NCBI RefSeq assembly: GCF_900115975.1
Contig: NZ_FOYM01000012.1
Location: forward strand, 1-64,000
Length of the DNA stretch: 64,000 bases
Reading direction: 5' to 3'
Origin: Desulfoscipio geothermicus DSM 3669
Lineage (GTDB): Bacteria > Bacillota > Desulfotomaculia > Desulfotomaculales > Desulfallaceae
Shown: positions 5,813 to 64,000 of the stretch, one piece after another
Layout of the letters: each line of letters starts with the position of its first letter
Position numbering within the stretch: the stretch's first letter is position 1
Notes under the pieces: generated by a model
Databases searched by the model: none
The model's input: the letters and a program-made list of their open reading frames with translations, nothing else
What the model was told of the DNA's origin: nothing
Made by a program: the position numbers and the translations under genes

Positions 5813-5874
5813 AAAAAAAAGGGGACTGGCTCCTTTTTCGCTTTTGAAAAAGGTGCCTGTTCCCCTTTTTTTTT
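5813..5874. repeat. Palindromic repeat, family A (GGGGACTGGCTCC type), copy 1
   Basis: An inverted repeat with arms GGGGACTGGCTCC and GGTGCCTGTTCCCC around TTTTTCGCTTTTGAAAAA, flanked by A and T runs. The two arms are not perfectly complementary: T faces T and A faces A at the same two sites in most copies. It resembles a REP-type (RAYT-dispersed) element and could also act as a terminator for rpmB. Confidence 0.8.
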
Positions 5875-13196: not shown

Positions 13197-14090
13197 ATGA
13201 AAAAGCTGTTTAAGGTACTGTCCCTCATGGCAGTGCTCGCCATGCTGACAGCGGTGCTGTTCGGCTGCGCCCAGGGCGGCGAGGAAAAGAAAGAAGGCGG
13301 CGAAGGGGCCAAGGAAGGCAAAGGCAAGGTAACCCTTGGCTACGTTGAGTGGGATTCCGAAATTGCCAGCACCCACGTGGTAAAGAATGTCTTGATAGAC
13401 ATGGGGTATGATGTAGAAACAGTGGCCGTGGACGCCGGCGTGATGTGGACCGGCATCGGCGACGGTGATTTTGACGCTATTGTTTCGGCCTGGCTGCCCG
13501 GCACCCACAAGGATTATTACGAAAAAGTCAAAGACAAAGTTGACAACCTGGGACCCAACCTGGAAGGGGCCAAAATCGGCCTGGTGGTGCCCGAGTACGT
13601 AACCATTAACTCAATCGAAGAAATGAACAGCGTCAAGGAAAAGTTTGACGGTAAAATAACCGGCATTGAGCCCGGTGCCGGTATCATGCGGGCCACGGAA
13701 AAGGCCATCCAGGATTACGGACTGGACTTCAAGCTGCAGGACAGCAGCAGCGCCGCCATGGCCGCATCCCTGAAAAAAGCCATCGACAACAACGATTGGA
13801 TTGTGGTTACCGGCTGGACGCCTCACTGGAAGTTCGCCAAGTGGGACCTTAAATACCTGGAAGACCCCAAGGGTATCTACGGCGGTGAAGAGCATATCGC
13901 CACCATCGTCCGCCCAGGCCTGAAAGAAGACATGCCCGAAGTTTATAGAATGCTCGATGATTTCCACTGGGCGCCCGCCGACATGGAAGCTGTCATGCTG
14001 GACATTCAGGGCGGTATGAGCCCCGATGAAGCGGCCCAAAAATGGATTAAGAACAACCAGGACAAAGTAAACGAGTGGATCGGCAAGTAA
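13197..14090 (+). CDS. Glycine betaine ABC transporter substrate-binding lipoprotein
   Basis: A 297-residue OpuAC-type extracellular receptor. The signal peptide (about 1-24) ends in the lipobox LFGC, with Cys24 as lipid anchor, followed by a Glu/Lys/Gly-rich linker. The mature part has Trp-rich segments expected for the aromatic cage that binds quaternary amines (SAWLPGTHKDYY, GWTPHWKFAKWDLKYL, DDFHW). AAAGGAGG precedes the ATG. It is the last gene of the operon and a hairpin terminator follows. Glycine betaine is inferred from family; choline or proline betaine remain possible. Confidence 0.93.
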   Translation: MKKLFKVLSLMAVLAMLTAVLFGCAQGGEEKKEGGEGAKEGKGKVTLGYVEWDSEIASTHVVKNVLIDMGYDVETVAVDAGVMWTGIGDGDFDAIVSAWLPGTHKDYYEKVKDKVDNLGPNLEGAKIGLVVPEYVTINSIEEMNSVKEKFDGKITGIEPGAGIMRATEKAIQDYGLDFKLQDSSSAAMAASLKKAIDNNDWIVVTGWTPHWKFAKWDLKYLEDPKGIYGGEEHIATIVRPGLKEDMPEVYRMLDDFHWAPADMEAVMLDIQGGMSPDEAAQKWIKNNQDKVNEWIGK

Positions 14091-46754: not shown

Positions 46755-46813
46755 AAAAAAAGGGACAGGCACCTTTTTCAAAATGCGAAAAAGGAGCCAG
46801 TCCCTTTTTTTCT
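46755..46813. repeat. Palindromic repeat, family A, copy 3
   Basis: AAAGGGACAGGCACC and GGAGCCAGTCCCTTT around TTTTTCAAAATGCGAAAAA. Orientation is opposite to copy 1, and the same two arm mismatches are kept. It touches the stop codon of the aminotransferase gene. Confidence 0.85.
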
Positions 46814-50273: not shown

Positions 50274-50557
50274 CAAAAAAGGGGACAGGCACCGTAAAAG
50301 GGGACTGGCTCCAATTCGTTTTGCAAGAAAGGCGCGCACCTAATCAGTTCCCTTTAAGCGCGCCTTTCAGTACTTCATTCCTTTGTCCTGGCCATACATT
50401 GGGGACATTCCTCGAAGAGGTGTGTCCCCTTTCCGCTGATGGCCAGGATATAATTTATGAAGTGCGAATTGGTGCCTGTCCCCCTTTTACGGTGCCGGCA
50501 AAAAAGGGGACAGGCACTTTTTTCAAAAAGCGAAAAAAGAGCCAGTCCCCTTTTTTG
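50274..50557. repeat. Nested cluster of palindromic repeats (families A and C)
   Basis: No gene lies between dapF and the P-type ATPase gene. A long family-A unit has its arms at about 50290-50321 (GGCACCGTAAAAGGGGACTG...) and 50464-50496 (the complementary CGAATTGGTGCCTG... side). Its loop is opened by about 140 bases. Inside the loop are two more hairpins: AAAGGCGCGC/GCGCGCCTTT (50328-50367) and CCTGGCCA/TGGCCAGG (50387-50447), the latter enclosing a family-C unit (50401-50429). A separate complete family-A unit follows at 50502-50556. The intact relative of the outer unit is at 5882-5940. Confidence 0.8.
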
Positions 50558-58134: not shown

Positions 58135-59283
58135 ATGGATATCAGTAAATTTTTCGCACCGGAAATTATTTTTGGTCTGGACGCCATCAGCCAGGTCGGC
58201 GAAAGTGCCCTGCGCCTGGGGGCCAAAAAAATATTTTTAGTCACCGACTGCGGGGTAAAAGAAAACAACTGGGTGGCTAAAGCCCTGTTTTACCTGGAAC
58301 AGGCGGGGCTGGAGTACATGGTCTGGTCGGGCATCACCAGCAACCCCAAGGACAGCGAGGTGGCCGAGGGAGCCAAAGCATACCTTTCCTCGCACTGCGA
58401 CGCCATACTGGCCGTGGGTGGCGGCAGTCCCATCGACGCCGCCAAGGCCGTGGCCATCATCGCCTCCAACGGGGGAAAAATCCAGGATTACGAGGGTATC
58501 AACAAAATCACCAAGCCCTTGCCGCCAATGATCGCGGTGCCCTCAACCGCCGGGTCGGGCTCGGAAGTTTCCCAGTTTGCCATTATCGTGGACAAGCAGC
58601 GCAAGATAAAAATGACTATTATTTCCAAGTCATTGGTCCCCGACATTGCCATCATCGACCCGCTGCTTTTACAAACCAAGGATTCCCGATTGACGGCCGC
58701 CACCGGCATCGACGCCCTGAGTCATGCCATTGAATCCTATGTTTCCCTTGCCGCCACCGGTTTGACCGAGGTGCACGCCCTGCAGGCGATTGAATTGATA
58801 GCGGAAAACCTACGGGAATCGGTGGCCTGCCGGACCAACATGCAGGCCAAGTCCGCCATGGCGATGGCCAGCTTGCACGCCGGCCTGGCTTTTTCCAACG
58901 CCATTTTGGGCGCCACCCACGCCATGACCCACCAGGTGGACGGCCTTTTGGACCTCCACCACGGAGAAACCAACGCCGTGCTGCTGCCCCACGTTATGGA
59001 ATTCAACCTGATTTCCTGTACCGAAAAATACGGCCGGGTAGCCGAAGCACTGGGAGAAAACGTAACCGGTCTGAACAAGCAGGACAGGGCTGAAAGGGCC
59101 ATCATCGCAGTACAGCGCCTGGTGCGGGACATCGGCATCACGGGCGGGCTGTCGACCATGGGGTTTAAGGAGGAATATATCCCCAAACTGAGCCAAAACG
59201 CCTTGAATGACGCATGCCTGGTAACCAATCCCAGGGACGCCAGCGCTGAAGACATGGCCCGGATTTTCCGCAAGGCCTTGTAG
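58135..59283 (+). CDS. Iron-containing alcohol dehydrogenase
   Basis: A group III NAD(P)-dependent dehydrogenase of 382 residues. It has the cofactor motif AVGGGSPIDAAKAVA, VPSTAGSGSEVS, and the iron-binding region with ASLHAGLAFSNAILGATHAM and GLLDLHHGETNAVLLPH (His ligands). ATG 58135 has AGCAGGTG upstream. It leads a run of genes for a GAF-PAS histidine kinase and a sigma-54 activator, so alcohol or aldehyde turnover is probably sensed by that system. The oxidoreductase gene at the right edge acts on aldehydes, a possible pathway partner. Confidence 0.93.
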   Translation: MDISKFFAPEIIFGLDAISQVGESALRLGAKKIFLVTDCGVKENNWVAKALFYLEQAGLEYMVWSGITSNPKDSEVAEGAKAYLSSHCDAILAVGGGSPIDAAKAVAIIASNGGKIQDYEGINKITKPLPPMIAVPSTAGSGSEVSQFAIIVDKQRKIKMTIISKSLVPDIAIIDPLLLQTKDSRLTAATGIDALSHAIESYVSLAATGLTEVHALQAIELIAENLRESVACRTNMQAKSAMAMASLHAGLAFSNAILGATHAMTHQVDGLLDLHHGETNAVLLPHVMEFNLISCTEKYGRVAEALGENVTGLNKQDRAERAIIAVQRLVRDIGITGGLSTMGFKEEYIPKLSQNALNDACLVTNPRDASAEDMARIFRKAL

Positions 59284-59298: not shown

Positions 59299-59907
59299 AT
59301 GAAAAATTATCATTTAGTTAATGAAAAAATGCGCCTGATTGAAAACCTCACCGGCGTAAATTCCTCCAAGCTGAATTATTACCTGGAAGTCAAGAAAAGT
59401 AACGATGAAATTATCAAGCAAAACAACCGTTTGGAAATTATCCACCAGATAATTAAAGATATCAATATAGATATGTCGCTGACGGACATCATCCAGCGGG
59501 TTTACGACCGCCTGCCGCTGGTAATACGCTGTGATTTCCTGGGACTGGCGCTCATGCAAAGCGATCACGAGTTAATTATGACGGCCATGATTCCCTCCTG
59601 TGACTGCACGGGCCGCCCGGTACCCTTCAAGTCCCTGCTCTGGCGTGCCGTCCGGGAAAGAGAAAGCAAGGTGTACTCGCTCGACGAAGAAGACCGTATG
59701 CTTCACAATTGCCCGCCGATAAAAAAACTGGACCTGACCTCCCTGGCCCTGGACCCGCTGATTGTCAAGGGCAATGTCATCGGGGTGCTGATGACCGGCA
59801 GCAGTAAAGACAACGCCTATACGGAAGACGAAGTGAAATTTACCCGCCAGTTGGCCGACCAGCTGGCCATCTGTATTGAAAATGCCCGCTCTACGAGCAA
59901 ATTTTGA
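59299..59907 (+). CDS. GAF-domain half of a frame-split sensor kinase
   Basis: 202 residues: an N-terminal helical segment (about 1-45), then a GAF domain (about 46-195) with IIPSCDCTGRPVPF-like MIPSCDCTGRPVPFKSLL, HNCPPIKKLDLTS and NVIGVLMTGSSKDNAYTEDE. The end is abnormal. After CIENAR the frame gives STSKF and a stop, whereas one frame over the DNA reads LYEQILKSKLEWEETFKALT, the natural continuation into the PAS kinase that follows. One missing base (about 59890) would join the two. So this is probably the first part of a single GAF-PAS-HisKA kinase gene, broken by a mutation, a sequencing error or a recoding site. Confidence 0.85.
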   Translation: MKNYHLVNEKMRLIENLTGVNSSKLNYYLEVKKSNDEIIKQNNRLEIIHQIIKDINIDMSLTDIIQRVYDRLPLVIRCDFLGLALMQSDHELIMTAMIPSCDCTGRPVPFKSLLWRAVRERESKVYSLDEEDRMLHNCPPIKKLDLTSLALDPLIVKGNVIGVLMTGSSKDNAYTEDEVKFTRQLADQLAICIENARSTSKF

Positions 59908-60974
59908 AAAGCAAACTGGAATGGGAAGAAACTTTCAAGGCCCTCACCGACCCGATTTTGCTGCTTGACCGGCACCATAACATCATCCGCTGTAACAACC
60001 GCCTGGATGATTTACCGGGCAAAAATTACGGGGACCCGCAAAAGAGCAAATGTTATCGTTATGTATGGGGCCACGAAAATAAGTGTGAAAATTGCAAGTT
60101 GGACGAAGTGTACGAAAACCAGGCCCCCGCTTACCACCGCGTGCAGCTGGAATCGGGAAAAACTTACGATGTTTATTACTACCCGGTATTTAACGTTAAC
60201 CAGGAAATATATTCCGTGATCCAACACATCAAGGATGTCACGGAACAAATTAAAATAGAGGCCCAGCTCATGCAGTCCGGCAAGCTGGCCGCCATCGGAG
60301 AAATGGCCGCCGGGGTGGCCCACGAATTAAACAGTCCCATGACCGTAATCATCGGCAATTCCCAGATGATTATGCGGGACGGCGGTATCGATCAAAACAA
60401 TGCCGACCTATTGGAAGATATTGTAAACTGCGGCCTGCGCTGCAAAAAAATCATCCAGAACCTGTTGACCTTTTCCCGCCAGGATCAGCGCCCCATGTCC
60501 CGCACCAGCCTGAACAAGGTGGTGGAAAGGGTTTTAAGCTTGATTCAGTACCAGATCAACCGCAACAACGTAGACATAGAACTGGACCTGGACCCAAAGC
60601 TGCCGGACGTGTTGGCCAACGAACACCAGTTGGACCAGGTGCTGATCAATTTGCTGCTCAACGCCCGGGACGCCCTGGAGAATAACCCGGGAGAGAAAAA
60701 AATCTTCATTTCCACCGGCTTGCGCCGGGCCGAAGAAGGCGCCTCGGTAGTGGCCACGGTCACCGACAACGGCGAAGGAATACTACCCGAAAACATCATG
60801 AAGATTTTCAACCCCTTCTTTACCAGCAAGGAAGCCACCCGGGGCACCGGATTGGGTTTATCGGTGAGCCTGGGCATAGCCGAAGCCCATGGGGGAACTA
60901 TCGAAGTGGTCAGCAAACCGGGCCGGGGCAGCAGTTTCACCCTGGCAATTCCGGTGGATTGCCCGGAAAATTAA
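59904..60974 (+). CDS. PAS-domain sensor histidine kinase (second part of the split gene)
   Basis: 356 residues. The PAS domain (about 5-112) carries an unusual cysteine set, CYRYVWGHENKCENCK (Cx10CxxC). Then come HisKA with the phospho-acceptor His in GVAHELNSPMTVIIGN (about 140) and HATPase_c (about 235-352) with NLLLNARDALE, TDNGEGILPENI and GTGLGLSVS. There is no membrane segment, so it is a cytosolic sensor. It begins at a TTG overlapping the stop of the GAF part, and the upstream sequence in this frame matches a kinase linker, supporting an original fusion. The response regulator follows 18 bases later. Confidence 0.9.
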   Translation: MKSKLEWEETFKALTDPILLLDRHHNIIRCNNRLDDLPGKNYGDPQKSKCYRYVWGHENKCENCKLDEVYENQAPAYHRVQLESGKTYDVYYYPVFNVNQEIYSVIQHIKDVTEQIKIEAQLMQSGKLAAIGEMAAGVAHELNSPMTVIIGNSQMIMRDGGIDQNNADLLEDIVNCGLRCKKIIQNLLTFSRQDQRPMSRTSLNKVVERVLSLIQYQINRNNVDIELDLDPKLPDVLANEHQLDQVLINLLLNARDALENNPGEKKIFISTGLRRAEEGASVVATVTDNGEGILPENIMKIFNPFFTSKEATRGTGLGLSVSLGIAEAHGGTIEVVSKPGRGSSFTLAIPVDCPEN

Positions 60975-60992: not shown

Positions 60993-62546
60993 TTGGCTCC
61001 TGGTGAAAATATTTTAGTTATCGACGATGAAATGGAAGTGGGAACTTTTTTCCGCCGGTTGCTGGAGCGCAAGGGGTTTAACGTCAGCACGGCCTATACC
61101 GGCAGTGACGCCGTCAAACTAATCAACTCCACCGGTTTTTCGGTGGCCTTAATAGACTTGAAACTGCCCGACGCCAACGGACTGGACCTCCTGCAGCACC
61201 TGAAAAGCAGACAGCCCGAATGTGAGGCCATCATCATGACGGGTTACGGCACCACCCGAACCGCCGTCAAAGCGATTCAACTCGGGGCCTTTGATTATAT
61301 AGAAAAACCCTTTGAGGATATTACCGAAGTGGAGGAGCTGATCGCCAAGGCTTTGGAATACGGACGCCGGGTAGCGGGAAAAAACGCCGGCCAGCCGGAA
61401 TGGCTGACCACCGCGGAGCGCATCGGTTTTGTGGTGGGCAACACCCCCAAAATGCTGCGTCTGGCCACCGTGGCGGATAAAATAGCCCGTAAAAACATAA
61501 ACGTCTTAATTCAGGGGGAAACGGGCACGGGCAAAGAAGTGCTGGCCCGGTTTATACACGCAGCCAGCCAGCGAAGCGAACAGACCTTTATTCCGGTAAA
61601 CTGCGGGGCCCTGCCCGAAAACCTGCTGGAAAGCGAACTTTTCGGCCATGAGAAAGGCGCTTTTACCGGCGCCACCAGCCAGCGGCGCGGCATTTTTGAA
61701 ATTGCCGACAACGGCACCCTGTTCCTGGACGAGATCGGCGAAGCCAGTTTGCCCATCCAGGTAAAACTGTTACGGGTGCTGGAAACGGGAGAATTCTTGC
61801 GGGTGGGTGGGGAAAAACCTGTTAAAACCGACGTACGGGTAATTGCAGCCACCAACGTAAACCTGGAAAAAGCTGTACGGGAAAAACAATTTCGCGAAGA
61901 TCTTTTTTACCGCCTGGACGTGGTAAGGTTGGAACTACCTCCCTTACGGGAAAGGAAAGAGGACATCACCATGCTGGTGAATCACTTTATTTCCCGCCTG
62001 GCCCCCAAAGACGCCGAACCACTGCAGGTTTCCCCGGAAGCCATGCAGATGCTGCTTGAGTATAATTGGCCCGGCAATATCCGGGAACTGGTCAATATAG
62101 TGGACCAGATACTTGCGCTGTGTGACAGCAATATAATATTGCCCGCGCATTTGCCGGACAAGATTCTATCCACCGGCGGCGAACACTTTACCCCAACTGT
62201 GGGCATACCGGCGGGCAGTCACCGGGAAGACAATACCCCGCGAACGCTGGTGGAAATACTGAATGATATGGTAAATAATCCCAAGTTAATAAACACATTG
62301 AATCCGGGCAATGTACTACTAGCTTACCGTATTATCAAGCAAGTGGAAGAAAAAATCCTGGACCGCATGCGGCACCTTGACGTACCGGGTCCCCTGCCAC
62401 CCAGTTTGGCGGAGATCGAAGCGCAAACCATTACCCGCACCCTGGCTTATTACGAAGGTAACATAACCACCGCCGCACGGTCCCTGGGAATCGGCAGAAA
62501 TACGCTGTACAGGAAGATTAAAGAATACGATATTGAAACCAAGTAA
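60993..62546 (+). CDS. Sigma-54-dependent response regulator (NtrC/AtoC type)
   Basis: 517 residues in three domains. Receiver (about 1-125): phospho-acceptor Asp in VALIDLKLPDANGLD, DDE pocket near the N-terminus, Lys in DYIEKPFED. AAA+ activator (about 145-385): Walker A GETGTGKEV, the sigma-54 loop HEKGAFTGA, Walker B NGTLFLDEIGE. Fis-type HTH at the C-terminus (NITTAARSLGIGRNTLYRKI). TTG 60993 has GGGGGTG upstream. It should activate a sigma-54 promoter, probably for the dehydrogenase or oxidoreductase genes nearby, though I found no clear -24/-12 site. Confidence 0.95.
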   Translation: MAPGENILVIDDEMEVGTFFRRLLERKGFNVSTAYTGSDAVKLINSTGFSVALIDLKLPDANGLDLLQHLKSRQPECEAIIMTGYGTTRTAVKAIQLGAFDYIEKPFEDITEVEELIAKALEYGRRVAGKNAGQPEWLTTAERIGFVVGNTPKMLRLATVADKIARKNINVLIQGETGTGKEVLARFIHAASQRSEQTFIPVNCGALPENLLESELFGHEKGAFTGATSQRRGIFEIADNGTLFLDEIGEASLPIQVKLLRVLETGEFLRVGGEKPVKTDVRVIAATNVNLEKAVREKQFREDLFYRLDVVRLELPPLRERKEDITMLVNHFISRLAPKDAEPLQVSPEAMQMLLEYNWPGNIRELVNIVDQILALCDSNIILPAHLPDKILSTGGEHFTPTVGIPAGSHREDNTPRTLVEILNDMVNNPKLINTLNPGNVLLAYRIIKQVEEKILDRMRHLDVPGPLPPSLAEIEAQTITRTLAYYEGNITTAARSLGIGRNTLYRKIKEYDIETK

Positions 62547-62583
62547 CCGCACTCTTTCATATACCGCCGCCTTTGGGGGATAA

Positions 62584-62656
62584 GCAAAAAGGGGACTGGC
62601 TCTTTTTTCGCTTTTAAAAAAAAGTGCCAGTCCCCTTTTTTGCCTGTCCCCTTTTT
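62584..62656. repeat. Palindromic repeat, family A, copy at 62.6 kb
   Basis: GGGGACTGGCTCT and AGTGCCAGTCCCC around TTTTTCGCTTTTAAAAAAA, followed by a partial arm TGCCTGTCCCC (62641-62651). It lies between the response-regulator gene and the AOR gene and may help end the former's transcript. Confidence 0.85.
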
Positions 62657-62788: not shown

Positions 62789-64000
62789 TTAGAAGTTGAA
62801 TACTTCGTCCAATTCAGTGGTCAAAGTGAACATGGTGTTGTGGGGTGGCAGTTCTTCGTTGTAGAAGAACTCGGGCAGGCGGTCGTCAGCCTTGGTGAAT
62901 CCGGCTTTTTCGTTGAATTCCCGCTCATTCTTGAGTATACTCTTGCCAAGTACCACAACATCGTCAGTGGTCAGGCTGGTTCCGTACATTGCGTTAATCA
63001 TTTCAACCACTGTGGGCAATCCTTCCGGATTGTCAAGAACGGCAAAGGCAACAAACAGGCATAAACCGGTGGCGTCCACGGCAGCGGTTGCGATTTGCAG
63101 GTTCCTGGACAGGTCAACCTGGCCTTCGTCTTTTGTTGCATCAACATAGCCGCCTACCTTAAGAATGTTGGCGGTTACAGCGTAGCCGGCAGTGTGGTCC
63201 GCACCCATCGGGGTGGTGGCGTAGGTAACGCCGTTGCCGCGGCAGGAACGCGGGTCATAAGCCGGCATAGCCTGACCTTTAACAGCAGGTATTCTGGTAA
63301 CACCGTATAATTTGCCGGCAAATGTAGCTCCGGCGCCGATAATTCTTCCCAGAGGAGTACCGGTGCGTACTTCTTCCAGAGCCTTGATAGCGGCTTTTCC
63401 GTCACCGAATGGAATTACACCGGCTTCCATCAGTACGCCCAGGGTGGCTCCGGCTTCGATGGTATCCAGGCCGATGTCGTTGCAGAGCCAGTTCATCATG
63501 GCCACATCGTCAAGATCCCCGACCTCCAGGTTGGGTCCGAAAGCCCAGGCGGATTCATACTCAATGGGGGCGCAAACTTTGCCGTTAGGCATTGGATATA
63601 CGTTGGAGCAGCGCATTACGCATCCGGGATGGCATGCGTGGGTGGCTTTCCCGCCCCGGGCGGTGGCCACTTCAGCCAGTTTTTCTCCGGATACCTCGCT
63701 GGCCTTGTCGAAACGGCCAAACTTGAAGTTCCTGGTGGGCAGGGTACCGGCTTCGTTGATAATGTTCATCAGCACGTTGGTGCCGTAAGCGGGCAGCCCC
63801 TGGCCGCACACAGGGTGGTCCAGCAGTATCTTGGCAAATTTCTTGGCGGCATCTTTAAATTTCTCAGGATCCTTGACAGGAACGTCAAAGGTGCTTGGGC
63901 TGTCAATGACAATGGCTTTGAGGCCCTTGGAGCCCATTACGGCACCCAGGCCGCCGCGTCCGGCGTAACGGGATGCGTTTCCGTCGCCGTCGTTAGTGCC
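62789..64000 (-). CDS. Aldehyde ferredoxin oxidoreductase, C-terminal part (cut by window edge)
   Basis: A tungsten or molybdenum pterin enzyme that oxidises aldehydes to acids with ferredoxin, or reduces acids. The visible 403 residues run in frame to the window edge; the N-terminal domain is outside. Landmarks are RYAGRGGLGAVMGSKGLKAI, the 4Fe-4S region CHPGCVMRCSN, DTIEAGATLGVLMEAG and the C-terminal AVDATGLCLFVAF with the distal cysteine. The roughly 200 missing N-terminal residues are expected from family length. It converges on the dehydrogenase/two-component cluster; a shared aldehyde metabolism is plausible. Confidence 0.95.
   Translation of the reverse strand, partial: GTNDGDGNASRYAGRGGLGAVMGSKGLKAIVIDSPSTFDVPVKDPEKFKDAAKKFAKILLDHPVCGQGLPAYGTNVLMNIINEAGTLPTRNFKFGRFDKASEVSGEKLAEVATARGGKATHACHPGCVMRCSNVYPMPNGKVCAPIEYESAWAFGPNLEVGDLDDVAMMNWLCNDIGLDTIEAGATLGVLMEAGVIPFGDGKAAIKALEEVRTGTPLGRIIGAGATFAGKLYGVTRIPAVKGQAMPAYDPRSCRGNGVTYATTPMGADHTAGYAVTANILKVGGYVDATKDEGQVDLSRNLQIATAAVDATGLCLFVAFAVLDNPEGLPTVVEMINAMYGTSLTTDDVVVLGKSILKNEREFNEKAGFTKADDRLPEFFYNEELPPHNTMFTLTTELDEVFNF

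Follow-up and report, generated by a model that had tools for sequence, protein, structure and literature searches.

A sensor kinase gene split by one missing base in Desulfoscipio geothermicus, within a conserved block of ErcA-like alcohol dehydrogenase, kinase and NtrC-type regulator

The 64,000-nucleotide stretch of DNA from Desulfoscipio geothermicus DSM 3669 that we analyzed (positions 1 to 64,000 of contig NZ_FOYM01000012.1; hereafter the window) carries, near its end, the gene of an ordinary cytoplasmic GAF-(PAS)-HisKA-HATPase sensor kinase from which, in this genome alone, one base is missing just past the GAF domain. Here, the gene encodes no single continuous polypeptide and is represented by two open reading frames (ORFs) in different frames. 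The first (59299..59907, + strand; 202 aa) begins with an ATG preceded by a strong Shine-Dalgarno sequence (AGGAGGT) and ends in CIENARSTSKF and a stop codon, with the final five codons (STSKF) lying outside the ancestral frame; the second (59904..60974, + strand; 356 aa) begins with a TTG, encodes the PAS-like, HisKA and HATPase_c segments and lies in the -1 frame relative to the GAF ORF. Both the kinase start codon (TTG) and the GAF stop codon (TGA) are contained in the overlap TTGA (59904..59907, + strand). Counted from GAF residue 197 to where the kinase begins, the spacing is 14 nt, compared with 15 nt in a single frame in relatives (tblastn), and the one base missing with respect to all of them is located in the GAF-to-kinase linker at 59887..59893 (+ strand). 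The loss of this base accounts for both ends of the break, and because the two pieces line up end to end with one and the same ORF of relatives, the observation of a split gene is not a chance one. These results bear out an earlier note made from the letters alone, which had described the two ORFs as a sensor kinase gene split by a single-base frameshift, placed the lost base near 59890 and predicted a restored protein of about 560 residues (intact relatives are mostly 552-560 aa) with the normal linker CIENARLYEQ; indeed, the junction DNA of the 39 loci described below encodes ICIENARLYEQ(V/I)L or a close variant.

We compared the junction with relatives by searching with four neighbouring proteins (tblastn) against 39 relative loci from approximately 32 distinct genomes, several loci being the same genome drawn from two collections. 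The junction DNA is uninterrupted, forming one ORF, in all 39. In an order-wide survey of 113 genomes, the GAF protein was detected at E <= 1e-30 in 50 (49 besides this one), and one open frame of 457-596 aa is found in 48 of these 49 relatives. The sole exception, G092 (L184, G092:C32), has a frame of 311 aa ended by an in-frame TAA within the PAS-like segment, and this nonsense codon is an independent break at a site other than the one reported here. Separately, in Desulforamulus aquiferis Bs105 (L040) the regulator and the C-terminal part of the kinase show frame changes, at other places, which are possibly assembly errors. The earlier note had named homologues split at the same place in several relatives as the observation that would refute a frameshift, and there are none among the 39 junction loci or the 49 order-wide relatives. 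Because the junction loci without exception, and all but one of the order-wide relatives, are intact, the one-base loss is confined to this genome and is the derived state. The orthologous kinases of Desulfallas, Desulfoscipio, Desulfotruncus and Desulforamulus have the same domains, and both halves of the gene are 80-83% identical to the ortholog of Desulfallas sp. Bu1-1; the difference is that these Desulfotomaculum-type relatives have one ORF, which a single base splits in two here.

A match to GAF_2 (Pfam, 3e-12) was obtained in the first ORF and matches to HisKA and HATPase_c (Pfam) in the second, in which the H, N, G1, F and G2 boxes are all intact. No PAS model matched the interval between GAF and HisKA at 1e-3 (Pfam), where a conserved CY...KC..C...DEV segment aligns across relatives; since this segment lines up in relatives even without a PAS match, "PAS-like" is a fair name for it. 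It is absent altogether from one group of relatives (open frame of 457-458 aa). The GAF-PAS-HisKA-HATPase architecture first proposed is therefore supported by Pfam for GAF, HisKA and HATPase_c, whereas PAS is assigned on position and conservation only.

The break may be a mutation carried by the cell or an error in the consensus sequence. The dN/dS ratio is 0.06-0.09 in the GAF and kinase halves (NG86, against relatives), similar to the intact neighbours, a pairwise measure that is blind to a very recent event; together with the lack of any further lesion, these values rule out an old pseudogene. With the kinase motifs intact, dN/dS low in both halves and decay completely lacking, the break is either very recent or a consensus error. 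We took a census of indels over ~950 kb of this genome (about a quarter) against 1.475 Mb of reference sequence, comprising a contig of Desulfallas sp. Bu1-1 that is syntenic with the contig of the window (G001:C71) and three stretches of a complete genome (G006). Three distinct splits were found in 297 orthologous ORF comparisons (100,776 aa; two relatives as reference). One is the kinase gene itself, split relative to either reference; the second affects a small coiled-coil ORF whose C run differs in length, and the third a tiny ORF on C82. In the reverse direction there were 4 splits among 220 comparisons, some of them recurring from the first set, so that the rates are alike both ways. So few splits indicate an assembly of normal quality and rule out one that is riddled with indels. 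Furthermore, there is no homopolymer of at least 5 at the site of the missing base, homopolymers of 5-7 within the ORFs being located elsewhere.

The low rate of splits and the lack of a long homopolymer incline us towards a real mutation, and we favour, with some reservation, a very recent loss of function over a consensus error, a weighting that is a judgement rather than a calculation. If the base is truly missing in the cell and function is lost, as we infer, translation would be truncated at 59907, yielding little or no full-length kinase and leaving the adjoining response regulator without its usual phosphodonor. Against this reading, the unchanged dN/dS and the absence of other lesions would also be expected of a consensus error, and conservation in relatives argues that the gene is useful and rarely lost.

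A sequencing or assembly error, with an intact gene in the cell, is accordingly the less probable of the two explanations and still a serious one. Full conservation of both halves and the near-universal integrity of the gene in relatives fit it, the genome is an 83-contig draft, and a second one-base difference lies 7 kb away in a C run, where errors collect; the low overall rate of split orthologs and the position of the missing base outside any long homopolymer count against it. The second difference is that of the coiled-coil ORF (contig C59 66969-67434; L043), which is located 7 kb downstream of the kinase, beyond the window, and is split by one base relative to Desulfallas sp. Bu1-1.

The earlier note had also left room for two proteins that still work together, an option that now finds little support. 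In such an arrangement, the GAF protein and the kinase would be made apart, with translation restarting at the TTGA (or at an ATG at 60270), and would still cooperate; the TTG/TGA overlap does have the geometry of translational coupling, and the kinase ORF is complete with all of its boxes. However, the Shine-Dalgarno sequence at 59904 is very weak (-2.2 kcal/mol, compared with -10.9 at the GAF start and -11.6 at the regulator), the arrangement is seen in no relative, and the overlap of the ORFs is fully explained by a one-base shift, and we consider a functional split of this kind improbable. The best in-frame internal start, an ATG (60270..60974, + strand; -5.8 kcal/mol), would give a HisKA-HATPase product without the PAS-like region. 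A low level of separately made kinase is possible; we give an even slimmer chance to a real and tolerated split in which TTGA-coupled restart frees the kinase from GAF control, such that the sigma54 alcohol/aldehyde regulon would be permanently on. Least credible is phase variation or programmed -1 frameshifting that would restore the complete protein in some of the cells, for although the overlap includes CAAATTTTGA, a mild A/T stretch, the site lacks any run of at least 5, no relative shares it, and the 28-nt overlap of the two frames contains no in-phase slippery heptamer (X XXY YYZ), on which ground we rejected a programmed frameshift. With a weak restart at 59904 and no slippery heptamer, a full-length kinase product is unlikely.

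The kinase gene belongs to a conserved block. Immediately before it lies an iron-containing alcohol dehydrogenase (Fe-ADH) gene (58135..59283, + strand), an arrangement shared by nearly all relatives (exceptions are L007/L034 and L008/L035). The best NCBIfam match of this Fe-ADH is ErcA (NF041833; regulatory ADH-like protein) at 492 bits, which falls short of the curated cut-off (550); its orthologs score 491-507 bits, and ErcA is likewise their best family. The second Fe-ADH beyond the window, in comparison, best matches another family, PRK09860. Downstream is an NtrC-type response regulator (60993..62546, + strand), in which a receiver, a sigma54 AAA+ domain (GAFTGA) and a Fis HTH are all present. 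The order of ErcA-like ADH, kinase and regulator is kept in nearly all relatives (39 loci), with the orthologous kinases of the genera named above likewise standing between the ErcA-like Fe-ADH and the NtrC-type regulator. As a separate observation, the ErcA-like ADH (58135-59283) has 35-41 lineage-specific amino-acid changes here against 16-19 in Desulfallas sp. Bu1-1, an imbalance (~2x) more uneven than that for the kinase or the regulator.

Beyond the regulator, on the opposite strand, is a gene that we named by reading its protein as a tungsten/molybdenum aldehyde:ferredoxin oxidoreductase-like gene (AOR; 62789..64000, - strand), which extends past the window to about position 64564 of contig C59; the second Fe-ADH (ADH2; contig C59 65225-66388) faces away from it. 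In the divergent region between AOR and ADH2, the sigma54 -24/-12 consensus is matched twice at 11/12 positions, with one site directed at each gene; shuffled sequence would give 0.0005 such matches, and no more than 10 occur in the whole 950 kb. Sites matching at 10-12 of 12 positions lie ~100 nt upstream of ADH2 in six further loci (L033, L037, L039, L041, L042 and, less closely placed, L036), and the AOR/ADH2 sites are hence both near consensus and conserved, as expected of -24/-12 promoters. The sigma54 gene rpoN is present in the genome. A sigma54 pattern scan of the whole window gave 34 matches against 39 expected and is uninformative, unlike the stricter scan at AOR/ADH2. The enhancer (UAS) motif TGT-N10-12-ACA was not found upstream of the sigma54 sites here and is scattered in relatives. 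The AOR-like gene is likely a target of the sigma54 switch. In addition, the AOR leader (C59 64565-64811; L043:565-811, reverse strand) contains, past the sigma54 site and ahead of the AOR start, a strong hairpin with a T run behind it, which resembles a terminator and could act as an attenuator; a search of this leader in Rfam for a cofactor riboswitch returned nothing above the gathering score.

Two other features of the window were also noted. A dispersed hairpin repeat (AAAAAGGGGACTGGCTCCTTTTTCGC-loop-GAAAAAGGTGCCTGTCCCCTTTTT) is found at 62586-62640, 5816-5851, 46755-46810 and 50497-50555. It occurs about 30 times in the 950 kb compared from this genome and nowhere in the 1.475 Mb of the references, and has a fold z-score of -8.35; it looks like a REP-type element, and Rfam microRNA matches at 62577-62650 are spurious, a long hairpin having been matched. 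Elsewhere, a glycine-betaine-binding lipoprotein (OpuAC-like, named from sequence only; 13197-14090, + strand) has its halves in swapped order, reversed with respect to the orthologs in G001:C71 and G006 at 79-88% identity per half, and is a circular permutation among close relatives.

The kinase gene appears to encode the sensing component of a regulatory switch for alcohol/aldehyde metabolism. For the intact system, we infer that the kinase would sense the alcohol or aldehyde state, perhaps together with the ErcA-like protein, and that the NtrC-type regulator would then switch on sigma54-dependent transcription of AOR and the second Fe-ADH. Such an arrangement has parallels in two known systems. 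In Pseudomonas, the pair ErcA/YiaY and ErcS/PP_2683 (YiaZ) are both needed to induce alcohol oxidation genes (PMC12997753), and there, as here, an Fe-ADH adjoins a sensor kinase; however, the Pseudomonas kinase is a hybrid kinase with a route to AgmR, of LuxR type (PMC12997753), whereas here a GAF-(PAS) kinase is accompanied by an NtrC-type sigma54 activator, and the likeness to Pseudomonas ErcA is limited by a score below the NCBIfam cut-off. In Clostridiales, the one-component activators AdhR and AorR, of which AdhR carries GAF and PAS input domains, control adh and aor genes through sigma54 (PMC7017808, PMC6615313). The sigma54-dependent control of Fe-ADH and aor genes would be common to Clostridiales and the system here, but AdhR is a one-component activator, whereas here sensing would reside in the kinase and activation in the response regulator. 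We found no description of a two-component version in Desulfotomaculum-type bacteria among open-licence papers.

The conserved block around the break is a further case, or a mild variant, of known regulatory themes, and the break itself is ordinary, being either a frameshift of recent date or a miscalled base in a single strain. Should the break be real, the strain is predicted to have altered induction of AOR and Fe-ADH. The genomic context tells more than the break: it suggests that sulfate-reducing Desulfotomaculum-type bacteria have a sigma54-linked, Gram-positive equivalent of the ErcA-kinase pair of Pseudomonas, so that the way in which an alcohol-dehydrogenase-like protein contributes to sensing becomes testable in a second, unrelated setting.
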